Source of the DNA: a bacterium BMS3Abin08
Lineage (GTDB): Bacteria > Nitrospirota > Thermodesulfovibrionia > Thermodesulfovibrionales > JdFR-85
DNA: 41,761 nucleotides
NCBI GenBank assembly: GCA_002897935.1
Contig: BDTA01000117.1
Location: forward strand, 1 to 41,761
Reading direction: 5' to 3'
A program made the position numbers and the translations under genes. The first letter of the stretch is position 1; every line of letters begins with the position of its first letter. Below the pieces are notes generated by a model, which was given only the letters and a program-made list of their open reading frames with translations, was not told the origin of the DNA and searched no databases. Below, piece after piece: positions 1,798-33,478 of this stretch.

Positions 1798-1842
1798 ATG
1801 AGAGACTAATTTCCGGCAATAAATAAGGTTCAAATCAAGCAA

Positions 1843-1976
1843 AGGGAGCGATATGATAGAGTCTGAACGGTTTAAATTTCGCAGTAAATTCGCCCGGATG
1901 GTGAATTGCGAAATTTCCTCGGAGACAGACAGTATGTCTGTCGAGAATGAGTGAAGAATCTATCATATCGCTCCCT
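1843..1976 (+). ncRNA. Structured intergenic element, copy 1 (three-way junction with conserved unpaired segments)
   Basis: The outer stem P1 is 18 perfect bp (1843-1860 with 1959-1976). Inside are two hairpins. P2 pairs 1874-1883 with 1907-1916 and 1888-1894 with 1900-1906, the latter with one G-U, around a CGGAT loop. P3 pairs 1924-1930 with 1936-1942 around an AGTAT loop. The unpaired segments GAACGG (1865-1870), CCTCGGA (1917-1923) and GAGAATGAGTGAA (1943-1955) are identical in the second copy at 33300-33424, whereas the stems differ in sequence but still pair. An outer 11-bp inverted repeat (1813-1823 with 2003-2013) encloses this copy only. It lies between two convergent genes. The strand given is the one on which the G-U pair and shared segments read. 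Family unknown; RNA is preferred over DNA mainly because of the G-U pair. Confidence 0.7.
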
Positions 1977-2049
1977 GCGACATTTATCAATGTTTCGGAT
2001 ATTTTATTGCCGGTGTAATAATCCGGATCGGGAGGGGCTTCAAACAACC

Positions 2050-31258: not shown

Positions 31259-32965
31259 CTATATTTCAAATATAATGGGAACAATCATCGGACGCCGGTC
31301 TATGGTTTTATAGATAAAACGCTTCAACACACTCCTGATCTTGGCCTTAATTATGGAGACATCCTGTTTCAGATCCGGCTCCAACCCTTTTACGGTATCG
31401 GCTACAATCCTCCGGGCATCTTCAAGGAGTGCGGCTGATGCCTCCTCAGGGACAAAGCCCCTCGAAACGATGTCCGGTCCCGAAGCAATATTGCCGCTGG
31501 TCTTCTCCATGGCCATTATTACAAGGAGGATGCCGTCATGGGCAAGTTTCCTCCGGTCTCGCAAAACCACGTCTTCAATATCACCCTTGCCGTCAATGAA
31601 CACCCTGCCGGAGACCACCTTACCGTTCTTTCCGGCAGACCCGTCGTTTATCTCAAGCACTTCACCGTCCTGCATAAAAAATATGTTCTCCCGGGGAATG
31701 GCAAGCTTTTCAGCAAGCTGGGCATGATAAACAAGGTGCCTGAACTCCCCGTGAATAGGCATGAAGTACCTGGGACGCACAAGGTTCAGCATCAGCTTCA
31801 ATTCCTCCTTTGAAGCATGGCCGGATACGTGAACCTCCGAGACCTTTTCGTAGATTACATTTGCCCCCCTCTTGAACAAATGGTTGATTATCTTCCCAAT
31901 CGACCTCTCATTACCGGGAATCATCTTCGATGAAAGAATCACTGTATCATCCGGCCTTATCTTTATGGTTTTATGCTCATCCGTTGCAATCCTTGAAAGC
32001 ACACTCATAGGTTCGCCCTGGCTGCCTGTCGTTATAATCACGACCTCCCTGTCCGGCAGCTTGAGTATCTCATCAAGCCTTACCCAGGTATCCTCGGGCA
32101 TCTTCAGATACCCAAGGTCCAGGGCAATCCCGGCATTGGAGACGAGGCTTTTGCCACAGATAGAAACCTTCCTTCCATATTTGCATGCAACATCCACAAT
32201 CTGCTGTATCCTGTGGATATTAGATGCAAAAGTAGCGACTATAATCCTTCCGGTCGCTGTGAACAGGATATTCTCAAAGGCCCTCCGCACCTCTTTCTCT
32301 GAAAATGTAAAACCCCCCTTTTCTGCATTCGTGCTGTCCGACATTAAAAGGAGGGTTCCCCTGTCACCGAATTCGGAAAACTTCCCAAAGTCAAGCAGCT
32401 CTCCATCCACAGGTGTAGGATCGATCTTGAAATCACCTGTGTGAACTACCAGTCCGAGGGGCGTATGTATCCCGAGTCCCGCACCATCGACAATACTGTG
32501 TGTAACCCTGACAAACTCAACAACAAAAGGGCCCACAGGAACTGAATTCCTCGGCCTGACAGGAACAAGCCTACCCCTGATATGGTATTCCTTGAGCTTC
32601 TCCCTTATCATCCCGATGGAAAGGGGTGTCCCAAAAACAGGAATATCCGCCCCAACCTCCCTTAGCAGGAAGGGGAGCGCACCCGTGTGATCTTCATGTC
32701 CATGGGTTATCGCAATCCCCCTCACCATGTCCCTGTTTTCCTTCAGATATGAAAAATCCGGAATAACAAAATCAACCCCCGGCATCTCATCATCGGGAAA
32801 CATGATTCCGGCATCCACAACAAGGATATGGTCACCGTACCTGAATACGGTACAGTTCAGACCAATCTCCTCCACCCCTCCAAGGGGTATTACCTGAAGG
32901 AAATGTTCACCTGAAAACGTGTTATCCTGGGTCATAAAGGGCATCGGTTCGTAATTCAAGTTCAT
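31259..32965 (-). CDS. rnj: Ribonuclease J
   Basis: This metallo-beta-lactamase/beta-CASP RNase of about 568 residues has endonuclease and 5'-3' exonuclease activity in mRNA decay and rRNA maturation. The zinc motif is H88-G-H90-E-D92-H93 in AITHGHEDHTGALP. Further motifs are LVVHTGDFK, SDSTNAEKGGFT, the beta-CASP ATFASNIHRIQQ, TGSQGEP, and MPIHGEFRHL. A C-terminal domain (about 455-568) is present. The ATG at 32965 is used; an in-frame TTG lies three bases upstream and a later ATG at residue 11 is possible. No strong Shine-Dalgarno is seen. The gene is flanked by long repeat-filled gaps on its 5' side. Confidence 0.95.
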   Translation of the reverse strand: MNLNYEPMPFMTQDNTFSGEHFLQVIPLGGVEEIGLNCTVFRYGDHILVVDAGIMFPDDEMPGVDFVIPDFSYLKENRDMVRGIAITHGHEDHTGALPFLLREVGADIPVFGTPLSIGMIREKLKEYHIRGRLVPVRPRNSVPVGPFVVEFVRVTHSIVDGAGLGIHTPLGLVVHTGDFKIDPTPVDGELLDFGKFSEFGDRGTLLLMSDSTNAEKGGFTFSEKEVRRAFENILFTATGRIIVATFASNIHRIQQIVDVACKYGRKVSICGKSLVSNAGIALDLGYLKMPEDTWVRLDEILKLPDREVVIITTGSQGEPMSVLSRIATDEHKTIKIRPDDTVILSSKMIPGNERSIGKIINHLFKRGANVIYEKVSEVHVSGHASKEELKLMLNLVRPRYFMPIHGEFRHLVYHAQLAEKLAIPRENIFFMQDGEVLEINDGSAGKNGKVVSGRVFIDGKGDIEDVVLRDRRKLAHDGILLVIMAMEKTSGNIASGPDIVSRGFVPEEASAALLEDARRIVADTVKGLEPDLKQDVSIIKAKIRSVLKRFIYKTIDRRPMIVPIIFEI

Positions 32966-33012
32966 CAATCAGCAGCTTATCGAAACCTGAATTGAGCGAT
33001 TCTTTTACCTAA

Positions 33013-33128
33013 TGTCGTGTCAACCTTGTAATGTCGGGGTGTTTGAATTGTCATTCCCGCTACGTCGGGAATCATACTCCTCTTAGATTCCGGACAAGCC
33101 GGAATGACAATCGAGAGTTGACGCGACA
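33013..33128. repeat. MITE-like element with TGTCGnGTCAAC ends
   Basis: The ends TGTCGTGTCAAC (33013-33024) and GTTGACGCGACA (33117-33128) pair at 11 of 12. Inside are two hairpins, TTCCCGctacgtCGGGAA and ATTCCGGacaagCCGGAAT, the second shared with the 11192-11276 and 41159-41331 repeats. No transposase. Confidence 0.6.
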
Positions 33129-33225: not shown

Positions 33226-33299
33226 TTAAACAATTGCTGAAGAGAATACGCAATCATATTTATGAAATAGTGTACTAAGAGACCATTCAAGTACCGGAT

Positions 33300-33424
33300 G
33301 GTACAAGGTATCGGGTTTGAACGGCTTCCAGTTTTATCCCGTACTCATTACGGTGATAAAACTGCCTCGGAGTCCCGACCTGATGTCGGGACGAGAATGA
33401 GTGAAAACCCTATACCGTTGTACC
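33300..33424 (+). ncRNA. Structured intergenic element, copy 2 (same fold and unpaired segments as 1843-1976)
   Basis: P1 pairs 33300-33318 with 33405-33424 (one bulge, one mismatch). P2 pairs 33329-33338 with 33355-33364 and CCGTA/TACGG around a CTCAT loop. P3 pairs 33372-33379 with 33385-33392 (8 bp) around a CTGAT loop. The unpaired segments GAACGG (33319-33324), CCTCGGA (33365-33371) and GAGAATGAGTGAA (33393-33405) are identical to copy 1, while none of the stem sequences is shared. The P2 loop CTCAT is complementary to ATGAG in the third segment; this is not so in copy 1. It lies between rnj and argF, antisense to both. Family unknown. Confidence 0.7.
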
Positions 33425-33478
33425 TGACAGCCATAAAATCGCTCAATTTGGGTGAAAAAAACCGGGTTTAACGCCTGG

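Follow-up and report, generated by a model that had tools for sequence, protein, structure and literature searches.

The locus raises the question of what kind of element could occupy two intergenic sites of the same window (here the whole 41,761-nucleotide stretch that was analysed), sharing unpaired segments letter for letter while its stems differ in sequence and nevertheless remain paired. The evidence set out below makes it probable that both elements belong to a MITE-like, non-autonomous mobile repeat whose + strand fold is kept for a putative trans-acting protein.

Two window copies and their relatives

Both elements were located at the positions and with the segments given in a preliminary description of this DNA, with the identical junction segments and the differing yet paired stems, and folding against shuffled sequences confirmed the three-stem fold for each (Table 1). 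Folded as single-stranded RNA, copy 1 reached -64.9 kcal/mol (z -9.5) and copy 2 -58.7 kcal/mol (z -6.9); as single-stranded DNA, copy 1 reached -41.4 kcal/mol (z -10.9). None of the shuffled sequences attained the fold quality of either copy. The covariance model matched them at 1844-1974 (E 1.4e-33) and 33299-33424 (E 2.8e-20), each copy being itself part of the model. In the whole window, CCTCGGA-N10-40-GAGAATGAG is found as a linked pair twice and no more, against a shuffling expectation of 0.00; the occurrence in the window of GAGAATGAGTGAA by itself, with at most two mismatches, is not significant. The loops of five bases ending in AT that had been described hold for the window copies and not for the family, in which P3 loops are mostly of 3 or 4 nt. 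In copy 1, the pairing of P3 continues inward to a GTA triloop.

Table 1. Coordinates of the two copies and their parts within the window.
Feature	Position	Strand	Basis or remark
Copy 1, whole MITE-like unit	1813..1998 (~186 bp)	+	Read from sequence against complete 189-200 bp units
Copy 1, imperfect terminal inverted repeats	CCGGCAATAAA 1813-1823; TTTATCAATGTTTCGG 1983-1998	+	Read from sequence
Copy 1, three-stem core	1843..1976	+	Folding; covariance-model match
Copy 1, P1	1843-1860 with 1959-1976, plus 1862-1864 with 1955-1957		
Copy 1, J1/2 GAACGG	1865..1870	+	Family-wide GARCGG or near variants
Copy 1, P2	1874-1916		
Copy 1, J2/3 CCTCGGA	1917..1923	+	Near-invariant family-wide
Copy 1, P3	1924-1942		
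Copy 1, J3/1 GAGAATGAGTGAA	1943..1955	+	GAGAATGA near-invariant in family
Copy 2, three-stem core	33300..33424	+	Folding; covariance-model match
Copy 2, P1	33300-33318 with 33406-33424		
Copy 2, J1/2 GAACGG	33319..33324	+	
Copy 2, P2	33329-33364		
Copy 2, J2/3 CCTCGGA	33365..33371	+	
Copy 2, P3	33372-33392		
Copy 2, J3/1 GAGAATGAGTGAA	33393..33405	+	
Copy 2, right terminal inverted repeat AAAATCGCTCAATTTGGG	33435..33452	+	Read from sequence

What had been delimited as copy 1 is only the core of a larger unit, and C18 was matched out to both ends of that unit by BLAST with positions 1800-2020. No recognisable target duplication borders the unit of copy 1. For copy 2, a left partner of the terminal inverted repeat was not recognised; its sister at C77 (L051) is complete at either end and is bordered by a TGAGA target duplication.

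Copy 1 is flanked by convergent genes for an MFS transporter and RNase III, and a terminator-like signal is absent from it. Copy 2 lies between the genes for ornithine carbamoyltransferase and RNase J, antisense to both. A ribonuclease gene adjoins each window copy (RNase III at 2050-2772 and RNase J at 31259-32968), an adjacency that is probably due to chance because other copies lack such a link. At 33049-33118, the window also holds another dispersed palindromic repeat, GTCATTCCCGC...GGGAATC / ATTCCGGACAAGCCGGAATGACA, that is unrelated to the element; its relatives recur in many G000 loci, and its UUCCGG-like arms recall the MRSC-65-2 motif in the main text of PMC11109978.

The element is far from limited to the two copies first described. 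Covariance-model searches, the first model being built from five copies, found 34 copies at E < 1e-4 in the 2.6 Mb of the window's genome and copies in 27 of the 41 genomes searched, this one included, with a maximum of 82 per genome. BLAST with copy 1 recovered further copies in the window's genome, several of them at contig ends because near-identical copies broke the assembly. With a second covariance model, 59 of the 296 genomes sampled from the phylum proved to carry the element. A single order accounts for nearly all of these 59, and many families of this sample are entirely without it; at most 11 candidates per genome were scored, so that its per-genome counts are lower bounds. A pattern scan of GTDB species genomes returned at least 118 stretches. 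Among the matches listed, which come mostly from MAGs and may in some cases be misbinned, the majority belong to Thermodesulfovibrionales and other Nitrospirota, and Latescibacterota, Gemmatimonadota, Campylobacterales, Nitrospinota, Parcubacteria and Melainabacteria are also represented. The element was unmatched in IMG/VR and in phage and plasmid collections. Rfam release 15 (ribozymes, riboswitches, HEARO and others) likewise gave no match at gathering or loose thresholds, which agrees with the initial view of an apparently unnamed family.

Selection on structure and the strand that folds

The fold of P1 to P3 is under selection while the sequences of its stems turn over. Across 59 covariance-model matches, 43 of 44 pairs have changed on both sides in a compensatory manner, and pairing holds in 93.9% of pair cells, compared with 65.7% when shuffled; when the structures are slid along the alignment, pairing falls to 32-43%. 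Because this alignment was fitted to the covariance model, the pairing test was repeated without fitting on 128 copies from 49 assemblies, which were selected on their junction sequence alone and compared in one fixed register. The P1 arms of these copies paired at 89.8% with their own partners and at 67.8% with the partners of other copies. Within single genomes, the corresponding values were 93.2% and 78.0%, and they were 93.1% and 71.7% when only the outer half of the 16 tested positions was counted. An orthologous copy compared between two species at 76% identity still has its stems paired and an altered P3 sequence, a result for which gene conversion between copies could be an alternative cause. 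The junctions are fixed throughout the family (Table 1), J3/1 reading GAGAATGAGYGAA, with GAGAATGA near-invariant and followed by GYGAA variants. Selection on structure, proposed earlier from two copies, is thus upheld both by compensatory change and by the exchange of P1 arms, and the contrary pattern considered at that time, junctions kept with pairing lost, was not seen across the 59 copies.

The folded strand is the + strand, because G.T and T.G pairs in P1 exceed A.C and C.A mismatches 159 to 27 when the end of P1 is fixed by Watson-Crick pairs only. This excess persists whatever the orientation of the copies to genes (sense, antisense, convergent or divergent), and it turns into a measured property the strand-specific tolerance of wobble pairs that had been guessed from a single G-U pair. 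On the choice between RNA and single-stranded DNA as the folded form, the indications diverge: the wobble excess slightly favours RNA, and the antisense placement of many copies, together with the GNA triloops, speaks for single-stranded DNA. The loop types of P3 are mixed evidence in this regard, since the broad sample comprises 50 triloops of 116 (32 of them GNA) and 41 tetraloops (10 of them GNRA), counts that are not independent given the shared ancestry of the copies. A reading of CGGA/GA around P3 as a K-turn was rejected, the base following GA being variously G, A, T or C. Some Nitrospirota copies contain a -10-like box (TATAGTATTT) in P1, which other carriers lack.

Transposition of the window's family and bare cores elsewhere

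In the window's family, the core is enclosed in a unit of 189-200 bp with imperfect CC...GG terminal inverted repeats (CCCRAATCCAGCGATAA...). End motifs of the CCCRAATCCAGCGATAA type occur 43 times in the window's own genome, and the reversed control occurs 0 times. Twenty-nine units were called with two ends, and the exclusion of 2 zero-length artefacts left 27 complete units; exact 5-bp direct repeats abut the CC and GG ends in 14 of these 27, against 0.64 with swapped flanks, and the duplicated targets are mostly AT-rich. A site that is filled in G016 is empty in the related species G015 and G012. In G006 (L369-L386), units of 198 bp that are nearly identical to one another form a recent burst, and many contigs end inside a unit. 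The inverted repeats, the 5-bp duplications, the empty sites and the recent burst together show that the window's family transposes as DNA.

Two further observations concern the composition of these units. MITEs with the identical end type and without the three-stem core were seen at L281, L290 and L296, of which L290, with 58 bp between its ends, retains a TATTA target duplication. In some units (L305; also L043, L053 and L057 compared with L049 and L050), the core is inverted relative to the outer arms, as if recombination had taken place between both P1 arms.

Other Nitrospirota, Latescibacterota, Gemmatimonadota and further lineages carry a bare core squeezed between genes. In the broad sample, with ORFs called by a simple longest-ORF rule, the median distances from core to ORF are 32 and 20.5 nt beyond a 20-nt margin, and 50 of 70 copies between codirectional genes are antisense to them (50:20, p = 4e-4). 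At these bare cores, neither CCCRAATCCAGCGATAA-type terminal inverted repeats nor target duplications at the P1 ends were seen, and the flanking space is too small for outer arms. The lineages in question may possess a different unit, or their core may act where it lies. The core may have been retained after the loss of its outer arms, or it may predate them and spread in some other way. In the comparison of G027 (L363) with G038 (L114), a site that might have been empty of a bare core was discarded, as the orthologous gap is filled by an unrelated inverted repeat. This repeat at the L363 site (TTGAGCGATACAT...) is perhaps another MITE.

No recurrent neighbour gene was tied to the element when 2168 ORFs from its loci were clustered, and the resulting groups, judged by eye, resemble common housekeeping families. 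Individual placements include a copy in a Parcubacteria MAG (L204:326-421) that lies antisense within the operon for ATP synthase, where atpG and atpD appear to be its neighbours on either side (names assigned by eye), and two copies about 25-40 bp from tRNA genes (L136:2881-3011 and L130:3769-3899).

Known systems and the candidate reader of the fold

Small folding mobile repeats are already known. Bacterial MITEs such as Correia/NEMIS, RUP, ERIC, YPAL and others have been reviewed, with secondary structure, as RNA or as DNA, noted in several cases (PMC2229807). Like the element, they are short, non-coding, intergenic and multicopy, with terminal inverted repeats and target duplications (PMC2229807). 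The element differs from them in that its interior is conserved and not its ends alone, with a three-stem junction and fixed junction bases, in the compensatory change that affects all stems, in its strand-specific tolerance of wobble pairs and in the existence of bare cores without ends. Among mobile or repeat sequence candidates, MRSC-65-2, for which the main text of PMC11109978 leaves the choice between RNA and DNA form undecided, is likewise structured, strongly covarying and present in dozens of copies per genome in diverse phyla. As presented there, MRSC-65-2 forms one long stem with UYCCGG repeats; the element forms a three-stem junction with GARCGG, CCTCGGA and GAGAATGAG, and the UYCCGG repeat is absent from its consensus. 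The three-stem family itself was not found described in the openly accessible literature, PMC11109978 being compared through the MRSC-65-2 motif of its main text, and the main texts of the structured-RNA surveys consulted do not mention Nitrospirota.

The notion of a self-cleaving or regulatory RNA, a retron or an omega-RNA guide, raised initially, finds no support: the repeat is dispersed and lacks a recurrent neighbour gene, and in the window's family a MITE-like unit with inverted repeats and 5-bp target duplications carries it. A one-off riboswitch is likewise an unlikely description of the element. Reverse transcriptase was not among the recurrent neighbours of the sampled copies in the clustering of neighbouring ORFs, and sequence inspection revealed no conserved attC-like ends of the integron type.

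For the mobility of the unit, one gene of the IS1380 type in G010 has an end similar to that of the element (CCTGAATCCTGCG). The IS1380 family produces target duplications of 4-5 bp, and ends starting with CC are common to both; the element differs in that it has no transposase gene, and several carrier genomes, G006 included, have no match to the family. On this sequence resemblance, an IS1380-type transposase as the mover of the unit is only a lead. In the proposed mechanism, a DDE transposase encoded elsewhere, possibly of this type, would move the unit by its ends. The + strand of the core would be present as RNA, or be exposed as single-stranded DNA at replication, and the putative trans-acting protein would bind its fold through the fixed junction bases; once bound, it may help the element to spread or persist. 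We infer this second recognition event because the junction bases are fixed and the pairing is strand-specific.

A different origin of the fold would be a core kept by the host as a signal for RNA processing, stability or termination, or as a BIME-like docking site for proteins, which a MITE later captured. This fits the close placement of bare cores, in many operons, between a stop codon and the next start codon, the excess of antisense copies, the covariation of P1 inside single genomes and the pairing maintained in the orthologous copy. Neighbour and orientation, however, are not constant, many families of the phylum sample lack the element wholly, recent bursts of identical copies look selfish, and copy 1 has no terminator-like signal; we regard a host-kept core as unlikely. 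Far less plausible is the complete absence of selection on a folded strand, with template switching at replication repairing imperfect palindromes. Such a process predicts long, near-perfect stems and fast sequence turnover, both of which P1 has, yet the correction of duplex palindromes is blind to strand, and a strand-blind mutational explanation is disfavoured because the wobble excess sits on one strand in all orientation classes. The unpaired junction bases are, moreover, fixed across phyla.

The REP/RAYT system, in which a Y1 (HUH) transposase would move the fold in trans as a large REP-like single-stranded DNA hairpin, shares with the element its dispersal between genes and the importance of one strand's structure, and GNA triloops are common in the element. 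The link to Y1/RAYT was nonetheless rejected: none of the 30 Y1 loci examined has a copy nearby, and two carriers, G003 (31 copies) and G008 (39 copies), have no Y1_Tnp match in draft genomes that are 93-95% complete. The 130-nt three-stem fold is also not a short hairpin, and inverted repeats with 5-bp target duplications mark DDE rather than Y1 transposition, which leaves the REP/RAYT account very improbable. Similarly slight are the chances of a self-cleaving or catalytic retroelement RNA, a retrozyme-like module. The layout of the element's three-stem junction, with its fixed unpaired bases, recalls that of small ribozymes in general, and the wobble pairs on the + strand are compatible with such an RNA, but Rfam ribozymes are unmatched, in the window's family the unit, bounded by terminal inverted repeats, transposes as DNA, and reverse transcriptase does not recur nearby.

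The preferred reading of a MITE-like repeat with a protein-read fold has a wider form, which we advance tentatively: a three-stem module of RNA or single-stranded DNA, with fixed junction bases and a putative protein reader, would be distributed over several phyla, would in one family have been taken up by a MITE and would have no enzyme of the RAYT type. Such a module could, somewhat doubtfully, represent a new class of repeat that is recognised by its fold and that promotes or safeguards its own spread.

The selection of a one-strand fold in a high-copy element of many Nitrospirota, with sporadic occurrence in other phyla, implies a protein that recognises it; to our knowledge, nobody has named such a protein for this element. 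The element would add to the short list of structure-read mobile DNA, which includes REP/RAYT, IS200/IS605 and attC, or would alternatively turn out to be a dispersed RNA that acts where it lies. Because copies of the element break MAG assemblies, the covariance model is directly useful for annotation.
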